A DNA stretch of 29,632 nt, taken from the IMG/VR virus record IMGVR_UViG_3300029448_000272, positions 1 through 29,632 of that record. One strand, written 5' to 3'. The number at the start of each line of letters is the position of its first letter. Position 1 is the stretch's first letter. Positions 9,084 to 25,012 of this stretch are shown here, piece after piece. Below the pieces are notes generated by a model. The model saw nothing but the letters and a program-made list of their open reading frames with translations. It did no database searches and was not told where the DNA came from. The DNA is from a virus. The position numbers were made by a program, and so were the translations under genes.

Positions 9084-9106
9084 TTCGTTAAGGGTGGACA
9101 CAAATG
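9084..9106 (-). promoter_or_regulatory. 23-bp element, copy 1 (candidate phage promoter or operator)
   Basis: Read on the - strand this contains CATTTGTGTCCACCCT followed by TAACGAA. It matches the + strand at 13662-13684 with two differences in 23. AAACAGCAAT occurs just upstream in this orientation and a similar AACAGCAGCAAT precedes the other copy. This copy points at the virion genes, about 450 bases before the fibre gene. A T7-type polymerase needs promoters of about this length, but a repressor operator is equally possible. Confidence 0.5.
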
Positions 9107-9299
9107 CTTATTGCTGTTTAGGGTGCTTTCGTGGCCTTTGGTTAGTGCTTCTGGCAGTGCGTAAGCACCCATTATGAACACAGCCAAAGGTCACACCTTC
9201 GACACTTATATATATGTACCTCTCTGGGCACTTGAGTTGCTGATGCGTATTTGTGTCGTCAAATGCACATTTATTGTTGACATATGGAATCGCGTGATT

Positions 9300-9416
9300 C
9301 ACTGTCGCAACATTGGCTAGAGACCTGAGATGACAGCTGACTTCTAATCAGCAGGTTGGGGGTTCGAGATACCCCGCTTAATCATCGAATTGGTCTCTAG
9401 CGACACACTGTCGCAA
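9300..9416 (+). other. attP: attP candidate: tRNA-Arg(TCT)-like core within nested repeats
   Basis: Bases 9336-9368 read like the 3' half of a tRNA: anticodon stem GCTGA/TCAGC, loop CTTCTAA (anticodon TCT, Arg), variable AGGTT, then GGGGGTTCGAG. After 9368 the T arm fails (a 9-base loop before CCCC) and there is no D arm or CCA, so this is not a working tRNA. It is enclosed by a perfect 10-base inverted repeat (9316-9325 and 9392-9401) and then by an 11-base direct repeat CACTGTCGCAA (9300-9310 and 9406-9416). A partial tRNA sequence in a phage with a tyrosine integrase is the usual signature of an attachment site. The integrase gene is 2.8 kb downstream, farther than usual. Confidence 0.5.
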
Positions 9417-9429
9417 GGGAGACAAAACG

Positions 9430-9732
9430 ATGAACACAGGTTATCAACTTATCAAAGCTGCTAAGGCTCAGAACCTTAGTTTCCACGTTTTCTACGAAAC
9501 TGATGACGCATATGATGCGCGTGATCCTGATACGGGTTACGAACCAGCACATTCTCTGGACTCGACACTCGATCACCTATGGAGCGAGGCGCAAGCCTGT
9601 GACTCTGCCAACTTGCGGTTTGCTGACGGGTCATGGGTTTACCTGATCCACGGTAATGCACCTGACGAAACCATTAGCGACTACACCAACAGCGGCACCG
9701 CCAAGGCTCTGGTCGAAGGGGGTGCGTCATGA
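9430..9732 (+). CDS. Early protein of unknown function (100 aa)
   Basis: First gene of the rightward early run, with AAGGGAGAC upstream of the ATG. 100 residues, strongly acidic (ETDDAYDARDPDTGYEP) with an aromatic strand-like segment FADGSWVYLIHG. No membrane segment, signal peptide or known motif was recognised. Its stop codon overlaps the next ATG (ATGA), so the two are probably translated together. Being the first gene after the control region, it is likely expressed at once on entry; a host-directed role is possible but not shown. Confidence 0.75.
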   Translation: MNTGYQLIKAAKAQNLSFHVFYETDDAYDARDPDTGYEPAHSLDSTLDHLWSEAQACDSANLRFADGSWVYLIHGNAPDETISDYTNSGTAKALVEGGAS

Positions 9733-10115
9733 ATATAAATATCTCAAAGCTGGCTGACGGCGAGATCGGCTCCAAGCGTGATCGCGTCACCAATCACTTC
9801 TATAAAGAGCTTTCAACTATCCACGCGGCAGGGGCTACGCCTTGCCGCTTTAGGTTCTACTGTAGCGGCAGTGTGATTCATTGCATTGCGTGGATTAGTG
9901 GCACCGCAGTCCATGGCTCTGGCTATGGCAAGGCTGGTGGCTATGGCTATTGCAAAGAGTCTGCCGCGATGCACGATGCTATCTGCAACGCTGGAATCAC
10001 TATGTCGGAGCATTGGGCGGGCATGGGAGACACCCGTATGCGCTCTGCTGCGCTTGGCATTGCCAAGGCTGTCTCAGGCAAGCGCAAGTTCCATTTGCAT
10101 ATAGCGCACGGGTGA
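9729..10115 (+). CDS. Early protein of unknown function (128 aa)
   Basis: 128 residues starting with an ATGA overlap with the gene before. Features: a strand-like segment PCRFRFYCSGSVIHCIAWI, a Gly/Tyr-rich loop GSGYGKAGGYGYCKESAAMHDA, and a basic C-terminus GKRKFHLHIAHG. Four Cys and several His are present but not in a clear zinc-finger spacing. The YGKAGGYGY segment followed by a helix looks like a conserved loop. I do not recognise the family. Confidence 0.75.
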   Translation: MNINISKLADGEIGSKRDRVTNHFYKELSTIHAAGATPCRFRFYCSGSVIHCIAWISGTAVHGSGYGKAGGYGYCKESAAMHDAICNAGITMSEHWAGMGDTRMRSAALGIAKAVSGKRKFHLHIAHG

Positions 10116-10125
10116 GGGGGCAGTC

Positions 10126-10254
10126 ATGAGCAACCTTATCACAAACATCATTGGAACCTTAATCTTAGTTGCAGCCACGATCCCGTGGCTCAACATCTGG
10201 GGGCCAGAATACACCTATTGGGGCTTGATGGTCCGGCTGGCTGGTGCGTCATGA
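10126..10254 (+). CDS. Small membrane protein (42 aa)
   Basis: A 42-residue reading frame with GAGGGGG upstream of its ATG, fitting exactly between the 128-residue gene and the next, whose ATG overlaps this stop (ATGA). Residues 4-25 (LITNIIGTLILVAATIPWLNIW) form one hydrophobic segment, so an inner-membrane location is likely. The C-terminal half is short and Trp/Tyr-rich. Tiny membrane proteins in phage early runs often act on the host envelope or on competing phages, but nothing here shows the role. Confidence 0.65.
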   Translation: MSNLITNIIGTLILVAATIPWLNIWGPEYTYWGLMVRLAGAS

Positions 10255-10523
10255 ACAGCTACTTTATCACACAGAGGGGTGTCACTCAGATAGGTCAAGA
10301 CCTGACCACGATTGCTGACGCACACGGACTCGATAATGTGGGGCGTTGGTGTCCTGACGCGGTTGCAAACGAGATCACCGGCCAAGCTGATTTCGATCTT
10401 GAAATGCAGCGCAACGGTCACTTCGTTCATGAGCTAGGCATAAGATCACCACGCGGTGATGTCCTAACTATCACCATAGACCGCGCACAGTGTGAGGCTC
10501 TCAGCTTCGAGGTGACATCATGA
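10251..10523 (+). CDS. Early protein of unknown function (90 aa)
   Basis: 90 residues from the ATG at 10251, which overlaps the stop of the small membrane protein. An upstream in-frame ATG at 10185 would lie inside that gene and is not used here. The protein is acidic, with MNSYFITQRGVTQIGQDLTTIADAHG at the start (helical) and strand-like LTITIDRAQCEALSFEV at the end. No catalytic motif or membrane segment is visible. Its stop overlaps the next ATG. Confidence 0.75.
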   Translation: MNSYFITQRGVTQIGQDLTTIADAHGLDNVGRWCPDAVANEITGQADFDLEMQRNGHFVHELGIRSPRGDVLTITIDRAQCEALSFEVTS

Positions 10524-10738
10524 GTACCCCTAGACCCCCTTGGTCGCGCTGGTCATCGGCGCGACTGTTTCAAGCTGACTTTTACAACCTGAGATGGCCT
10601 GTGTGCGGCACCCGCTATGTGTGGGCTGTCGTGGGCTACAAGTGGGTCCATCTCTGCACACCGATCCAACATGACCGCTGGCGCATTAGTCGCGCCGATT
10701 GGGACGCATTACCGACATCAGAAAGGAAACCAAGCTAA
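10520..10738 (+). CDS. Trp-rich small early protein (72 aa)
   Basis: 72 residues with seven Trp and many Arg. The stretch from about residue 28 (CGTRYVWAVVGYKWVHLCTP) followed by DRWRISRADWDAL looks like a small SH3-like beta barrel, with alternating hydrophobic strands and a final helix. Such small barrels often bind nucleic acid or protein partners. Starts by ATGA overlap and ends by TAATG overlap, so it is locked into the early run. Function unknown. Confidence 0.75.
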   Translation: MSTPRPPWSRWSSARLFQADFYNLRWPVCGTRYVWAVVGYKWVHLCTPIQHDRWRISRADWDALPTSERKPS

Positions 10739-11016
10739 TGGAATACACAGTTATCAAAGAAGGCACTAGACGCCTTGACGCGACACCGACTTGGGAGGGT
10801 CTCGTGAGACCCCTGATCGCATTAGTTCATGAGGGCGAAACCTACGAGTCACGACAGATGGCAAAGGGAGAGCTTCGCCGCATGGCGAGGCTTGCCGACT
10901 GTTGGGTCGAGTACCGTAAGGAGCAATTAAAAGCTGAAGAAGCAGAGCGCGACACTGCTGCAAAACGCTTCGAGACAATGCTTTATGGCGCTGATGAGCA
11001 GGAGGCAGAGCAATGA
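10738..11016 (+). CDS. Charged helical early protein (92 aa)
   Basis: 92 residues from the ATG at 10738, which shares a base with the stop before it (TAATG) and has AAAGGAAAC upstream; an in-frame ATG at 10699 lies in the previous gene. The protein is mostly helical and highly charged (YRKEQLKAEEAERDTAAKRFETML), with a short strand-like start MEYTVIKEGTRRLD. No motif recognised. It could form a coiled coil through its C-terminal half. Confidence 0.75.
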   Translation: MEYTVIKEGTRRLDATPTWEGLVRPLIALVHEGETYESRQMAKGELRRMARLADCWVEYRKEQLKAEEAERDTAAKRFETMLYGADEQEAEQ

Positions 11017-11333
11017 GCAACAAAGCATGGCACATAAGCTATATCTCCGCGATGGTCGGACCCTGCACCGCTACGACAGAAGATGGCGACATGGCATGGG
11101 GAGAAGGCAGTGACTATTCAGTTAGGTTGCTGGATATGGACAACGACGGTGAAAAGCTGCTGCTGCATATCGATCCATCAGTTCTGATTGACGACAAGCT
11201 AGACGAGCTAAAAACATATCAATTGGTTGGGTATGCGATCCATCACGACTTGCCGTATTCGGTGACTCCGTGGGACGAGTTCATATCAGATGACGAGCGC
11301 GACGCTCACCCAAGTTCTGAGGTGCTGTCATGA
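11013..11333 (+). CDS. Acidic early protein of unknown function (106 aa)
   Basis: 106 residues, starting by ATGA overlap. Strongly acidic (ATTEDGDMAWGEGSDYS; LLDMDNDGEKLLLHIDPSVLIDDKLDEL; FISDDERDAHPSSE). Small acidic proteins in early phage regions sometimes mimic DNA, for example some anti-restriction proteins, but acidity alone does not establish this. Its stop overlaps the next ATG. Confidence 0.75.
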   Translation: MSNKAWHISYISAMVGPCTATTEDGDMAWGEGSDYSVRLLDMDNDGEKLLLHIDPSVLIDDKLDELKTYQLVGYAIHHDLPYSVTPWDEFISDDERDAHPSSEVLS

Positions 11334-11695
11334 ACGCATTTGCAAAAGTGGCGGCAGAACACGCGACGGTGGAGTGGTCGATATATCGAAGCGTCAGGCC
11401 ACTCGACGGAGCCTACCGCGCTAGAGAGCCTGATGTTTGGAAGCTGGACTTTCGAGCCTTGATTAGAGGCGACCGCAACCGACTCCGCAAAGGCACCTAC
11501 GAGCTTGTGTACGAGCGCGACGGTATCAAAGCGCGAGGGTACTTCGATGTCGATGGGGCTGGTTTCTTTGCAGACCCGCGACACCTGATGGGCACCATTA
11601 CCGACATGCGCGACGCGACGGGCTACTGGGGCCGCTACATCGAAGGCTTTTACAAAAACCAATACGGCGAGATTGCCGTGAACATTAGTCACTGA
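11330..11695 (+). CDS. Early protein of unknown function (121 aa)
   Basis: 121 residues, starting by ATGA overlap. The middle has beta-like segments (RKGTYELVYERDGIKARGYFDVDGAGFF) and the end is aromatic (ATGYWGRYIEGFYKNQYGEIAV). The net composition is near neutral with many Arg. No membrane segment or catalytic signature was seen. It is followed after eight bases by the next gene, which has its own GAGGAG site. Confidence 0.75.
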   Translation: MNAFAKVAAEHATVEWSIYRSVRPLDGAYRAREPDVWKLDFRALIRGDRNRLRKGTYELVYERDGIKARGYFDVDGAGFFADPRHLMGTITDMRDATGYWGRYIEGFYKNQYGEIAVNISH

Positions 11696-11706
11696 GGAGA
11701 TCTGTG

Positions 11707-12234
11707 ATGGACTGCATAGAGCAAAAACCCGACACACTGCAATTTAAAGTAAGCTACGCGAGGCCGCTCATCAGCTTAGTGGACTATGACGATAGCGACA
11801 CAGATAGGTTGTTAGTAAGCGGTTACTACATCAAGCGACTGTTACGAGAAACCATCGACTGTTGGAACCTAGAACCAAGGGTCGTGCGTGATAATAAAGG
11901 GCGAGTGGCAAAGGTTAATCAGAACCCTTACTGGTGCGCTTACCGCGACATTCTTTTGAACAACCAGTTCCACCCAGAGGATGTCGTCACTTTGCACAAG
12001 CATTTAAGCGAGGGTTTTCAAAAGGCCATAACGCTAAAATTAGAGGCCATCGAAGAGCTAAAGCAAAACTACAACGACGATCTGATTAACAATGAGCAAT
12101 GTCAGAAGCTAATTGGGTTTCTTGAAGAAACCTTGAAGCACTTACAAAACGACAGGTGTAGTTGTTTGACGCAGCTTTTGGACTTGATAATGCAGCTTCA
12201 TCAGCAGCATGAACTATGGGAGACACCACAATGA
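11707..12234 (+). CDS. Early protein of unknown function (175 aa)
   Basis: 175 residues. A GTG at 11704 is directly followed by ATG at 11707; the ATG gives better spacing from GAGGAG. The first half mixes strands and helices (YARPLISLVDYDDSDTDRLLVSGYYIKRLL); the second half is long-helical (FQKAITLKLEAIEELKQNYNDDLINNEQC...FLEETLKHLQNDRCSCLTQLLDLIMQLHQQHE), suggesting a coiled coil. Its last bases overlap the integrase start (ATGA). Proteins made directly before an integrase can be directionality or control factors, but there is no helix-turn-helix I can point to. Confidence 0.75.
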   Translation: MDCIEQKPDTLQFKVSYARPLISLVDYDDSDTDRLLVSGYYIKRLLRETIDCWNLEPRVVRDNKGRVAKVNQNPYWCAYRDILLNNQFHPEDVVTLHKHLSEGFQKAITLKLEAIEELKQNYNDDLINNEQCQKLIGFLEETLKHLQNDRCSCLTQLLDLIMQLHQQHELWETPQ

Positions 12235-13133
12235 CCAACCAATATACATTCACTCAATATGCTGAGTCTCACCACGACATAATCTTTCGCAAGAGCGGCG
12301 ACAAACACAAGAAAGATGTTCGAGGACGCATTTTAAGGTTCGGAGAGTTTCGAGGCGTTGGCGACAGGCTGATCAACGACGTAAGAACAAACGACATACA
12401 TATATACATGGATCATGTCGTTAGTAACTTGAAGCTCTCAGAGTCTACGGCCAACCGCTACGGTGTAGCTGTCACTGCTGTGATGAACAACGCACTCGAA
12501 AACGGTATCGTGAGCCACAAGTGTTCTGTCGATCTTTATGAGGAACAACACGGCAGACCAAGGTACTTTAGTGACGAGGAAATACAGAAGATCACGACGT
12601 TTCTACGGTACTCCCGAAACGCATGGATGGAGCATATGTTTACCTTTGCGCTGCACACTGGCGCGAGGCTGGGCGAGATTATTCGAATCGGCGTGGATGC
12701 TGAGTTTTATTACGACGACGACGGTGATCCTGTCTTGTGGCTCCCTGACAGCAAGAACGGCTGTGAGAGGTACTTCCACCTCACAAAAGACTCAAAGGCC
12801 GCCTACGACGCTCTGAGGGCGATTAACGAGGGATTAGCAGAACGTGGTGGTAGGAAACGACACTTTTACTGCAACTCTGAGTTCTATCGCACTTGGTCGA
12901 GTATGCGACGCAAGATTGCTCCAAATGATAAGCATTTTGTGTTCCATGTCACACGACATACGGCGGCGACGCATTTCGCTAACCGACTGAATCTTGGCAG
13001 CTTAGTTATCAAGAATATCATGGGACACAAGCGCATGGAAACGACATCGAAATACGTCAAGCTGGAGACAGACACAGCTAAAGACGCAGCGACGAAGATG
13101 CAGACGCTTGCAGACGAGCGCAAAGCTAGTTAG
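12231..13133 (+). CDS. int: Tyrosine recombinase / phage integrase
   Basis: 300 residues from the ATG at 12231, which overlaps the previous stop and has GGGAG upstream; an in-frame ATG at 12216 sits on that GGGAG and is less likely. Catalytic residues are visible: Arg146 in HTGARLGE, Lys175 in DSKNG, His239 and Arg242 in HVTRH, His266 in MGHKR, and nucleophile Tyr275 in TSKYVK. This is the complete set for the family. The N-terminal 100 residues fit a core-binding (SAM-like) domain. There is little room for a separate arm-binding domain, so the protein is short compared with lambda Int (356). It integrates phage DNA into a host site, probably a tRNA gene given the attP candidate at 9336-9368. 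It is last in the early run, before a 588-base control region. Confidence 0.95.
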   Translation: MTNQYTFTQYAESHHDIIFRKSGDKHKKDVRGRILRFGEFRGVGDRLINDVRTNDIHIYMDHVVSNLKLSESTANRYGVAVTAVMNNALENGIVSHKCSVDLYEEQHGRPRYFSDEEIQKITTFLRYSRNAWMEHMFTFALHTGARLGEIIRIGVDAEFYYDDDGDPVLWLPDSKNGCERYFHLTKDSKAAYDALRAINEGLAERGGRKRHFYCNSEFYRTWSSMRRKIAPNDKHFVFHVTRHTAATHFANRLNLGSLVIKNIMGHKRMETTSKYVKLETDTAKDAATKMQTLADERKAS

Positions 13134-13661: not shown

Positions 13662-13684
13662 CATTTGTGTCCACCCTAAGCGAA
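13662..13684 (+). promoter_or_regulatory. 23-bp element, copy 2 (candidate phage promoter or operator)
   Basis: Contains CATTTGTGTCCACCCT then AAGCGAA; matches the - strand element at 9106-9084 at 21 of 23 positions. It ends 37 bases before the chosen start of the RNA polymerase gene and points at it. Placement right before the polymerase and, in mirror orientation, before the virion genes suggests a shared control site for the two outward programmes. Confidence 0.5.
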
Positions 13685-13721
13685 TAGCGGCGGCGGAAAT
13701 CACAATGAAATGGGGAGTGTT

Positions 13722-16457
13722 ATGGATCATTTAAAATCACCCGACAACACCATCATGAGTGGCAGCAATCCTTTTAACAAACTGTCACAGATCAAGTTCT
13801 CTTTATCTCCTGATCATCAAGAGGAGCTAAGACGCGAAGCTGACATGCGACGGCTTGGTCATGAGCGGTTCATGGAACGTCTTAAAAACTCAAAGACGAG
13901 CAGCAACCAAAAGAATACACAGAATGTAATCAGTAATGAGCAAGTAGCTGTTGTCGATTACTTAGATAGCATTATCAAAGATCAACATGAGCCAACAAAA
14001 GGGCGACAGTTCTCTTGGCTCGACAAAGTTGAAGGCATCGACACACAGACTCTAGCTGTCCTTGCTTTGTCGATCATGTTCGATGCGGCTGGAGCTTCAG
14101 CTAAAAGGACTCCCACTATTACTAAACTTGGTCGAGCCGCTGAGATGGAACAATGGGCTTTGTGGCTCAGAGACCAAGACAAGGAGGTCGAGCGACGCAT
14201 ACTTTCTAAAGTAATGAAAGACCACACAAGCTACAGGTATCGTCGGACAGCTATGAAGGCCATTGTCAGCAAAGTGGCAACAGAGCGTGAGTGGGATATC
14301 CCTACTTCTTGGTCGTCTGGTAGTAGCGACGCTGAGTGTACGAAAGTTGGTAGCTTACTGTTCAACGCTGTAATGACTGCCACAAAGCTGTTCGAGGTCT
14401 ATGAGGATGTCGAGCGCACGACGCACAACGGCAAAACAAAGCACAAAACGATCTACAGAATTGGCTTGATGTCGGAAGCCGCGAGTGAGTTAAACGCGAT
14501 GAACGAGGCAAGTTCTTGGATGGAGCCTATGTTTGGCCCAATGACAGTGCCCCCTGTTCCTTGGCAGACTTACAAAGACCTGACAAACCTAGACCCAGCG
14601 CGACGGACTGCTGGTGTGTATCTTGATGCTGCACTGGGTGGCTTGGTGCCTTTGGTGCGTGGAGCAAACCCTCAGCAGCAGGAAATGCTATATAATGGCA
14701 TTAAAGACGGCTCAATGGACCCCATGATGAGGGCACTAAACGCCATACAAGCTACTCCTTTTGCCATCAACACACCTATCCTCGAAGCAGTAGCGTGGTG
14801 TTGGGATAACAACTTTGTCGCTGGTAAGTTCCCACACTCAAAAGAACTAGATGCTCTGGAGTTCCCAGCAAACTACGATCAGTTACCTGAGAAGGCAAAG
14901 AAACGCTGGAGACTAAAAGCTCGACGGCGTGTCAAGCGTAACAAATCGATCAAAGGTGGCATCGCTCAGATGAACCAAGACTTGAGAGTGGCGAGTGAGC
15001 TTGTCGATATTCCGTTCTATGTTGGAGCAAGCTGGGACTTTCGAGGCCGTGTGTATCCTGTCAGCACTTTTAACCACTGCCGCTCAGATCACATTAAGCA
15101 CATGATGGTTCTGGCAAACAAAGAGTTAGTTGGAGAGCAGGGTGCCTTGTGGATTGCTTTGAAGGTCGCTGACCTTGGTGACTTCGGAAAGATTAGTAAG
15201 CAGTCGTTACAAGCGAGGCTTGAGTGGACAGAGGCGAATCTTAGGAAGATTGTCGAGGTTGCTCAGGATTTCAAGCTGTCTTTTGAGGGCACAGACGACA
15301 CAAAGCTGTACTGGAGTGACGCCGACAAGCCCTTTGGTTTTCTCGCTGCTTGCATTGAGCTAACCAACTACTTGGCTGACCCTCTAAACTACGAGTCTGG
15401 GTTCCCTTGTGGGCTTGATGGTAGCAATAGTGGACTTCAGCACTTCAGCGCATTGGCACTCAACGAGGTCGAGGGTTCGTATGTGAATCTGGTGCCAAGC
15501 GACAAGCCAGCGGATCTCTATGAGACTGTGGCGGCAGTGGTGCGCGAGGCTATCGACAACGACACCAACTACACGGTGCATGGGCGCAACCTTAAACCTG
15601 TGATCAAGGCTTGGCAGGAGTTCAGAGTTGGTCGGAAAACTTTAAAGCGTAATGTGATGACCAAGAACTATGGCTCTAACCTATATGGCTTTAAGCAGCA
15701 GATTATCGATGACTTCATGGAGCCAATCAACGATCTAATCGATGAGGGCAAGCCGTGGCAAGGACATACAGTCAATCCCTTCGAGGTCGAGGCTTTCAAC
15801 AAGAAGACAGGGGAGAGCCGTGGGCCAGATGAAGGCAGACTAGCTGCTGACTACTTATCTCGTAAAAGCTGGACAGCAGTGAACACCGTGGTCAAGGGTG
15901 CGAATGAAGGCATGGCTTTTATCCAAGCTCTTTGTCAGGCGTGTAGTAAAGAGGACAAGCTGATGTCGTGGGTTACACCGCTTGGGTTTCCTGTGGTCAA
16001 CAGATACACCAAGCTCCTTAGCAAACCTATCAAGGTGTTCTTGTACGACAGGGAGTTCAAGTCTCTCAAGAGAACACAGGTAACACTGAAGAACCCCGAT
16101 GGTCGTTTGGTGGACCGTAGGAAGGCTGAAGCATCGTGTGCTGCCAACCACACACACTCTCTGGACTCAAACCACCTACATGCGACAGTTCTCAAATGTC
16201 TGGATAACTATGGCATCAAAGACTTCTTTTTGATCCACGACAGCTTTGCAACAACGCCAGCGAGGACAGGTGATCTTTACTACGCAATCCGCGAGGCTTT
16301 CATTGATCAATATGACAATGGTTGTCTTTACGAGAAGCTAAAACAGAGTGTTGTCGAGCAGTTAGAGAAACCAGAAAAAGCTAATCTACCAGACATACCC
16401 GCCAAAGGTACTCTGGACATGAAGAAGATTAGGGACAGTGAATACTGTTTCCTATGA
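13722..16457 (+). CDS. T7-type single-subunit RNA polymerase
   Basis: 911 residues from the ATG at 13722, chosen because GGGGAG precedes it; an in-frame ATG at 13710 would add four residues. The catalytic set of the T7 family is present: Asp566 in GLDGSNSGLQHFSA (T7 Asp537), Lys642-Arg643 and Tyr650 in KTLKRNVMTKNYGS (T7 Lys631, Arg632, Tyr639), and Asp840 in LIHDSFATTP (T7 Asp812). The C-terminus SEYCFL is the counterpart of the T7 FAFA foot. Length matches T7 (883). The enzyme transcribes phage genes from phage-specific promoters, freeing late expression from host polymerase. It lies after the integrase region and begins the replication cluster; the 23-bp element upstream may let it be self-activated or repressed. 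Confidence 0.97.
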   Translation: MDHLKSPDNTIMSGSNPFNKLSQIKFSLSPDHQEELRREADMRRLGHERFMERLKNSKTSSNQKNTQNVISNEQVAVVDYLDSIIKDQHEPTKGRQFSWLDKVEGIDTQTLAVLALSIMFDAAGASAKRTPTITKLGRAAEMEQWALWLRDQDKEVERRILSKVMKDHTSYRYRRTAMKAIVSKVATEREWDIPTSWSSGSSDAECTKVGSLLFNAVMTATKLFEVYEDVERTTHNGKTKHKTIYRIGLMSEAASELNAMNEASSWMEPMFGPMTVPPVPWQTYKDLTNLDPARRTAGVYLDAALGGLVPLVRGANPQQQEMLYNGIKDGSMDPMMRALNAIQATPFAINTPILEAVAWCWDNNFVAGKFPHSKELDALEFPANYDQLPEKAKKRWRLKARRRVKRNKSIKGGIAQMNQDLRVASELVDIPFYVGASWDFRGRVYPVSTFNHCRSDHIKHMMVLANKELVGEQGALWIALKVADLGDFGKISKQSLQARLEWTEANLRKIVEVAQDFKLSFEGTDDTKLYWSDADKPFGFLAACIELTNYLADPLNYESGFPCGLDGSNSGLQHFSALALNEVEGSYVNLVPSDKPADLYETVAAVVREAIDNDTNYTVHGRNLKPVIKAWQEFRVGRKTLKRNVMTKNYGSNLYGFKQQIIDDFMEPINDLIDEGKPWQGHTVNPFEVEAFNKKTGESRGPDEGRLAADYLSRKSWTAVNTVVKGANEGMAFIQALCQACSKEDKLMSWVTPLGFPVVNRYTKLLSKPIKVFLYDREFKSLKRTQVTLKNPDGRLVDRRKAEASCAANHTHSLDSNHLHATVLKCLDNYGIKDFFLIHDSFATTPARTGDLYYAIREAFIDQYDNGCLYEKLKQSVVEQLEKPEKANLPDIPAKGTLDMKKIRDSEYCFL

Positions 16458-24935: not shown

Positions 24936-25012
24936 TGGCGATTCCGCGAGGACTCGAACCCCGAACCTATTGCTTAGAAGGCAATTGCTCTATCCAGTTG
25001 AGCTACGGAACC
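24936..25012 (-). tRNA. tRNA-Arg (anticodon TCT)
   Basis: A complete 77-base cloverleaf on the - strand: acceptor GGTTCCG/CGGAATC (one G-U), D stem GCTC/GAGC, anticodon stem ATTGC/GCAAT with loop CTTCTAA (TCT), variable AGGTT, T stem CGGGG/CCTCG (one G-U) with TTCGAGT, discriminator G and encoded CCA. It should read AGA and AGG. It lies past the terminator at 25056-25099 for the leftward genes, so it may need its own promoter; TTGCGT and TTAAGA with 16-base spacing lie just upstream but match weakly. Confidence 0.95.

Follow-up and report, generated by a model that had tools for sequence, protein, structure and literature searches.

We analysed a 29,632-base IMG/VR virus record (IMGVR_UViG_3300029448_000272), called the window here, in which a run of nine small genes (g1 to g9) occupies positions 9430 to 12234 and is followed by a tyrosine integrase gene (int) and then by a gene for a T7-like single-subunit RNA polymerase (RNAP). 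We consider it probable, from comparison with related contigs, that the run is a modular early accessory operon for host takeover and anti-defence in a temperate T7-like phage, and that single genes are exchanged at its gene borders. Direct support comes from the anti-restriction gene ArdA in the array of relatives, and both the conserved gene order and the exchange at borders were observed. The run is of a known kind, although its border structure is unusual, and it lies at an early place where T7-like phages carry host-takeover and anti-defence genes. Under the arrangement proposed here, a backbone of g3, g5, g6, int and RNAP would keep its order and the remaining genes would be single-gene cassettes that are gained, lost and exchanged at start/stop overlaps, so that the operon would remain translationally coupled. 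The operon would be expressed soon after entry, and g1, g4, g7, g8 and g9 may be of the same host-takeover or anti-defence kind as the candidate g2.

The coordinates of the run and the residue lengths that a first-pass annotation of this DNA had given for g1 to g9 were all correct on re-derivation; its title spoke of eight genes, where both its list and the DNA show nine. As it had described, the genes are coupled by overlap, with seven of the nine junctions through int overlapping (six by a 4-nucleotide ATGA and one by TAATG) and gaps of 10 and 11 nucleotides at the remaining two. The Trp-rich small protein that it had noticed is g5 (7 Trp residues), and its very acidic protein is g7 (22 Asp and Glu residues, 6 Lys and Arg residues, isoelectric point [pI] 4.2); the g3 peptide is hydrophobic, with a grand average of hydropathy of 0.86. 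The description of the genes as lacking a recognised function also held, with no clear match to a structural or metabolic family for any of the nine proteins in Pfam, NCBIfam, PADLOC or PHROGs. Eight of them gave no match at all in Pfam, NCBIfam and PADLOC at E values up to 1, and the ninth, g9, gave weak matches alone (best E value, 0.017). The PHROGs matched by g2 (phrog_7028) and g6 (phrog_22670) are both of unknown function.

Contig 3300046170_000062 (L002), whose integrase and RNAP are 83% and 92% identical to those of the window, carries g1, g3, g5, g6, g7 and g8, arranged as in the window and at 76 to 100% protein identity, and lacks g2, g4 and g9. The ratio of nonsynonymous to synonymous substitution (dN/dS) between the two was from 0 to 0.31 for the six shared genes (Table 1), the value not being computable for the three missing ones, and the g3 protein was identical despite a proportion of synonymous differences (pS) of 0.225. 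Such constraint marks these six as genuine genes, g2 and g4 have relatives in other contigs, and the nine together form a tightly packed operon. The conservation of order that had been proposed as a check was also found, with g3, g5, g6, int and RNAP in a single order in all four complete regions (window, L002, L093 and L160). The high turnover of g2, g4 and g9 and the tight overlaps would be in keeping with mostly neutral or selfish small open reading frames, retained solely for coupling translation through to int, but purifying selection largely refutes this for the six shared genes, and g3, g5 and g6 are conserved at 45 to 73% in L160 and L093, which leaves this alternative very improbable. 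Relatives were collected by a tail-gene scan that gave 74 loci, with early regions examined in seven (L130 via L160) that had been picked for a match to a known early gene, ArdA, the slot-2 protein "x" described below, or int, so that the other loci may hold unmatched early genes; L146 belongs to another subgroup and was excluded from the counts. A scan with the RNAP gave L002's contig alone, probably owing to narrow search patterns.

Exchange between the window and L002 coincides with gene borders. When positions 9401 to 12300 were compared to L002 by blastn, homologous blocks extended over 9402 to 9732, 10098 to 10254, 10518 to 11699 and from 12231 onward, with breakpoints 0, 17, 0, 2, 4 and 0 nucleotides from a gene border; five of the six thus lie within 4 nucleotides, which none of 200,000 random draws matched. 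The motif TCATG was present at 21 of 41 listed junctions, versus 40 of the 514 ATGs on the plus strand of the window (binomial, 3e-13), and at 19 of 25 junctions up to g5 versus 2 of 16 after g5 (Fisher, 9e-5), both values being too small because the junctions are not independent, relatives sharing some of them. The count becomes 22 of 41 when the start of L160 g3 is moved by 3 nucleotides to its right position, and the 41 do not include the starts of L093 g5, the integrase in L093 or L160, or one late gene in L160. The simplest reading is that a ribosome site with an overlapping stop and start forms a conserved border that would enable genes to be exchanged one by one, and we infer that the ribosome site and TCATGA double as homology for the exchange. 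The nin region of lambdoid phages is a precedent for exchange at boundary sequences. One publication on mosaic phages discusses short conserved boundary sequences at gene borders as a proposed exchange mechanism (PMC3029335). The borders described here are alike in that exchange occurs at short conserved sequences; they are unlike in belonging to a T7-like phage and in consisting of a ribosome site with a stop and start that overlap (TCATGA). Such exchange would be a way for small phage operons to swap genes with translation intact.

The second gene was readable in nine phages (window, L002, L008, L091, L093, L095, L120, L127 and L160), and its content varied: ArdA in three (L002, L091 and L127), g2 in two (window and L008), a protein "m" in two (L160 and L120), "x" in one (L095) and "b" in one (L093). 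ArdA inhibits type I restriction by mimicking DNA. The ArdA family PF07275 matched this gene with an E value of 8e-10 (40 bits) in L002 and 2.1e-10 (41.9 bits) in L127, both above the cut-off of 27, and the copy in L091, cut off by the contig end, scored 19 bits, below that cut-off, and was 48% identical to that of L002 by BLASTP. The L002 protein also matched phrog_2059, "anti-restriction protein" (E value, 1.8e-10). We read the slot of g2 as a putative anti-defence slot, and that g2 itself counters a defence of the host or commandeers one of its processes is a tentative proposal to which we give somewhat less than an even chance. The first-pass annotation had called this stretch a place for host-takeover and anti-defence genes. 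The claim gains support for the place, with ArdA in the g2 slot of three of eight readable relatives and a location before int and a T7-like RNAP; it does not carry over to single genes, none of the window genes having been assigned an anti-defence role. The location between attP, the phage attachment site, and int, together with the MarR regulator annotated just before int in Pelagibacter phage HTVC019P, would also suit small genes that act in lysogeny control (repressor, excisionase and establishment functions) and not in host takeover. We regard lysogeny control as unlikely, since searches of Pfam, NCBIfam and PHROGs with the nine window proteins gave no match to a repressor or excisionase and the ArdA in the relatives' array is anti-restriction.

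Several observations weigh against a host-takeover and anti-defence operon, as does the dependence among junctions given above. The g2 protein has no Pfam match up to an E value of 1, hence none to PF07275, and it is basic (pI 9.4), whereas the L002 ArdA is acidic (pI 4.1). Neither "m" of L160, "b" of L093 nor "x" (scanned as its L008 copy) had an anti-defence match, and the neighbours of "m" relatives included no annotated anti-restriction gene in the two plasmids viewed of three. Finally, phrog_7028 was found in 0 of 385 alphaproteobacterial genomes, in a search whose controls gave no match either. Relatives of g2 occurred at 51 to 82% identity in ten viral contigs, and no match was found in INPHARED or in plasmids. 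At an E value of 1e-4, these contigs, except L008, matched the window at g2 alone, plus the lysis region in L011 and L012, and because they match at little else, g2 appears to travel in other phages as well. If slot 2 is read correctly, phages of a hardly cultured marine group keep exchangeable genes there, a known anti-defence gene among them, and what had been a list of unknown genes would become a panel for testing, with g2 (phrog_7028), "m" and "x" set beside ArdA.

The assignment to temperate T7-like phages (Autographiviridae type) follows from predicted markers: a single-subunit RNAP, a tyrosine integrase before it and small genes before the integrase. By tblastn, the RNAP matched 2568 INPHARED records, the best among those listed at approximately 29% identity over 100% of the query. 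Domains of endonuclease I, MazG, ribonucleotide reductase and lysozyme were also found in the window, and we also read primase/helicase-, polymerase- and exonuclease-like genes in it. Small hypothetical genes likewise precede the integrase in HTVC019P, Mesorhizobium phage Lo5R7ANS and Caulobacter phage S2B; the RNAP follows the integrase in HTVC019P and Lo5R7ANS, as in the window, and S2B has a g6 relative within its pre-integrase run. Gene content is otherwise unlike that of the window, with integrase identities of 31% (Lo5R7ANS) and 28% (HTVC019P). Rfam at an E value of 1 found no tRNA fragment like the window attP in the compared stretches, save a full tRNA-Leu in Lo5R7ANS, although short fragments could escape such a search. 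The early region of S2B (L187, 643 to 700) gave a match to a type III hammerhead ribozyme of 46.6 bits, just under the cut-off of 48.5.

That the run separates attP from int, as had been claimed, was borne out at the sequence level by a 35-nucleotide identity to tRNA-Arg(UCU) upstream of g1. These 35 nucleotides are identical in 64 genome stretches, many from SAR116 or Rhodobacteraceae, some assigned only to Alphaproteobacteria and a few others. The identity stops at TTCGAG, after which the phage reads ATACCCC and candidate hosts mostly TCCTCC; because it ends before the 3' end of the tRNA, integration at this core would break tRNA-Arg(UCU). An intact tRNA-Arg(UCU) carried by the phage is a candidate replacement, and such a gene was present in all three phages with an Arg-type attP (window, L002 and L160). 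In seven other leaders the core was read as tRNA-Thr by its anticodon and keeps the 3' end with CCA, and the L093 record, the sole Thr-type one searched whole, gave only a sub-threshold tRNA match whose location fits its attP. A broken core together with an intact tRNA-Arg(UCU) fits the pattern of tRNA-dependent lysogeny. That system as described (Guerrero-Bustamante and Hatfull 2024, PMC10865867) is alike in that the core leaves the tRNA unrestored and the phage carries a tRNA of the same isotype; it differs in a core of approximately 10 nucleotides, versus 35 here, and the phage here is a marine T7-like one. Matching of attP to tRNA genes also has a precedent for linking phages to SAR116 in an earlier report (PMC3861242). 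The host is probably a member of SAR116 or a related alphaproteobacterium, the tRNA match being the sole basis for this. Two SAR116 genomes have three (L067, L083 contig) and two (L027, L031 contig) copies of the tRNA-Arg core per contig, which suggests repeated integrations at tRNA-Arg. No prophage of the window lineage was recognised among 136 genomes from the taxonomic order of one SAR116 genome, where five integrase matches were obtained at an E value of 1e-20 and longer stretches covered three of the five. One genome (G222; L179, L180) held a related T7-like prophage with 27% RNAP and 33% integrase identity, a different layout and host-like genes just before int.

The leader that spans attP has two arms, A and B, on either side of the core, and B can pair alternatively with A or with strand C, which bears the Shine-Dalgarno (SD) sequence of g1. 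The B:C hairpin of the window had a z-score of -3.2, the only one below -2 among 25 gene starts as placed by the analyst, with the RNAP start 3 nucleotides late. In all ten leaders compared, the SD sequence of gene 1 was in such a hairpin, with four bases of GGAG paired in 3, three in 3 and two in 4; energies were from -14.7 to -22.5, and 0 to 2 of 300 shuffles were equally good. The leader of L169 repeats that of L091 and was left out, and L127 and L120 have common B and C strands. The pairs just 3' of GGAG differ on both strands: T-A, G-C in the window; T-A, G-C, G-C in L160; C-G, T-A, A-T, T-A in L008; C-G, A-T, G-C, A-T in L095; and C-G, A-T, A-T, G-C in L127. These were tabulated sequence by sequence, the MAFFT alignment being out of structural register. 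The A:B pairing was stronger than that of shuffled A in 971 to 1000 of 1000 trials in each of the ten phages, and in a five-class permutation the cognate sums ranked 2nd (A:B) and 3rd (B:C) of 120.

One reading of this leader is a translational switch that senses integration. In the free phage, A would pair with B during transcription of the leader and the ribosome site of gene 1 would stay exposed; on integration, recombination would take place in the tRNA-like core that separates A from B, so that A and the phage promoter would end up at the other end of the prophage; and in the prophage B would close on the ribosome site, and read-through from the host tRNA gene would fail to start the coupled operon, including int. 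Support from folding was mixed. Before strand C is made, A:B had a probability of 1.00 in all ten leaders, a figure obtained with no shuffled control. In the three Arg-type phages, opening of four SD bases cost 3.0 to 3.4 kcal/mol in the attP leader versus 7.3 to 9.4 without A, a gain of 3.9 to 6.3 kcal/mol, and opening of three bases cost 2.6 to 3.2 versus 5.2 to 9.0. For the probability that GGAG is wholly unpaired, a shuffled upstream arm equalled the real one in 0 of 50 trials for six leaders and in 4 (L095), 17 (L091), 44 (L120) and 49 (L127) of 50 for the others. Counting against a switch, the gain from A in the seven Thr-type leaders was 1.8 (L008), 0.5 (L093) and 0 (five others), GGAG was wholly unpaired with a probability of at most 0.012 in every full leader, and A:B was in the minimum-energy fold of the 150-nucleotide leader in the window and L002 only, so that the result varies with how long a stretch is folded. 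The equilibrium probability of A:B was also at most 0.124 in all ten full leaders, a minority state that also favours the view that A and B are paired integrase arm-binding sites in DNA and the hairpin merely a palindromic part with no translational effect. This type of integrase works with repeated arm sites, and the direct repeat CACTGTCGCAA lies on both sides of the core (9300 to 9310 and 9406 to 9416), with CCTTG-like repeats seen by eye several times around the L008 attP. Against integrase sites stand an SD sequence at least half paired in all ten hairpins, the variation of the pairs 3' of GGAG on both sides between phages and the z-score that sets g1 apart from the other gene starts. We give paired integrase sites, which explain A and B at least as well as a switch does, about an even chance, and consider that the early operon is unlikely to carry an integration-sensed switch. 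If it did, the switch would parallel, at the level of translation, integration-dependent immunity and the sib effect of lambda, and an attP-spanning leader that was regulatory would tie integration directly to translation. A limited literature search turned up no description of an attP-spanning arm combined with an SD hairpin, from which absence from print does not follow, and Rfam gave no match on the leader.

The motif ATTTGTGTC occurs in three exact copies, each in the gap that separates the tail genes from g1 or in the one that separates int from RNAP, and we infer that these sites are putative promoters for the phage RNAP. A 23-nucleotide inverted pair (91%) joins the sites at 9097 to 9105 and 13663 to 13671. 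With one mismatch allowed, 8 copies were found versus 8.26 expected, which is chance. Sigma-70-like promoters numbered 4 versus 6.2 in shuffles, and terminator-like sites numbered 7 versus 4.5 (standard deviation, 2.2), no clear excess.

Table 1. Features of the window discussed in the text; dN/dS values are against L002
Feature	Position	Strand	dN/dS	Description
Promoter-like motif ATTTGTGTC, other copy	9097-9105	-		Exact copy
Promoter-like motif ATTTGTGTC	9249-9257	+		Upstream of attP and g1
Arm A	9316-9325	+		GCTAGAGACC; 5' of attP core; complementary to arm B
attP core	9334-9368	+		35 nucleotides; anticodon-arm-to-T-loop part of tRNA-Arg(UCU)
Arm B	9392-9401	+		Pairs alternatively with A or SD strand C
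Leader hairpin B:C	9393-9423	+		Holds g1 SD (9417-9421); GTCTCT/GGAGAC and GCGACA/TGTCGC; -16.2 kcal/mol
g1	9430-9732	+	0.05	100 residues; acidic; alpha/beta in model; 94% in L002; relatives in L008, L091
g2	9729-10115	+		128 residues; basic; candidate anti-defence gene; phrog_7028 (E 1.2e-10)
g3	10126-10254	+	0	42-residue hydrophobic peptide; backbone; also in L008, L093, L160
g4	10251-10523	+		90 residues; optional; missing in L002, where TCATGA stands; L120 has a 65% relative
g5	10520-10738	+	0.13	72 residues; Trp-rich; backbone; in L002, L160, L093
g6	10738-11016	+	0.08	92 residues; backbone; phrog_22670 (E 6.3e-10); in L002, L093, L160, Caulobacter phage S2B
g7	11013-11333	+	0.18	106 residues; acidic; in L002
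g8	11330-11695	+	0.31	121 residues; 76% in L002; fastest-evolving shared gene
g9	11707-12234	+		175 residues; optional; absent from L002
Tyrosine integrase (int)	12231-13133	+	0.09	300 residues; PF00589 (E 1.6e-15); phrog_1 (E 2.6e-32)
Promoter-like motif ATTTGTGTC, other copy	13663-13671	+		Exact copy; before RNAP
T7-like single-subunit RNAP	13710-16457	+	0.08	Matches phage RNA polymerases by tblastn, lowest E among those listed 3e-84
Intact tRNA-Arg(UCU)	24936-25012	-		ARAGORN; Rfam RF00005, 65.4 bits; candidate replacement for integration-broken tRNA

Searches with the individual genes gave the following. No relative of g9 was found in INPHARED by tblastn, in L002 or in the other lineage loci (tblastn E value, 1e-3), and it is the sole gene of the nine with no relative found. 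For g8, L002's contig was the only place with a relative, INPHARED having none. The AlphaFold2 model of g1 (mean predicted local distance difference test [pLDDT], 77, from 4 sequences) matched only uncharacterised phage proteins; in BFVD, a single Foldseek match, to a Pseudomonas phage VCM protein that is likewise uncharacterised, fell below an E value of 0.001, and another seven had a probability of at least 0.92. An Ocr-like DNA mimic was considered for the acidic g1 and gained no support from Foldseek in PDB, which gave no match to this model at an E value of 0.001 or lower. The best VIA-align rows for g1 had Z values up to 4.5 and included many Rubisco small subunits, with approximately 70 residues aligned and a root mean square deviation of approximately 3, a modelled similarity that we treat as a common arrangement. 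The AlphaFold2 model of g2 (pLDDT, 47) was too poor for use, so no fold search was made with it, and PDB profile searches with g1 and g2 gave nothing useful. Relatives of g6 were found in seven Sinorhizobium phage records, besides the one in S2B. A relative of g5, split across two frames, is directly after an integrase in bacterial genome G003 (L181, 2880 to 4100).

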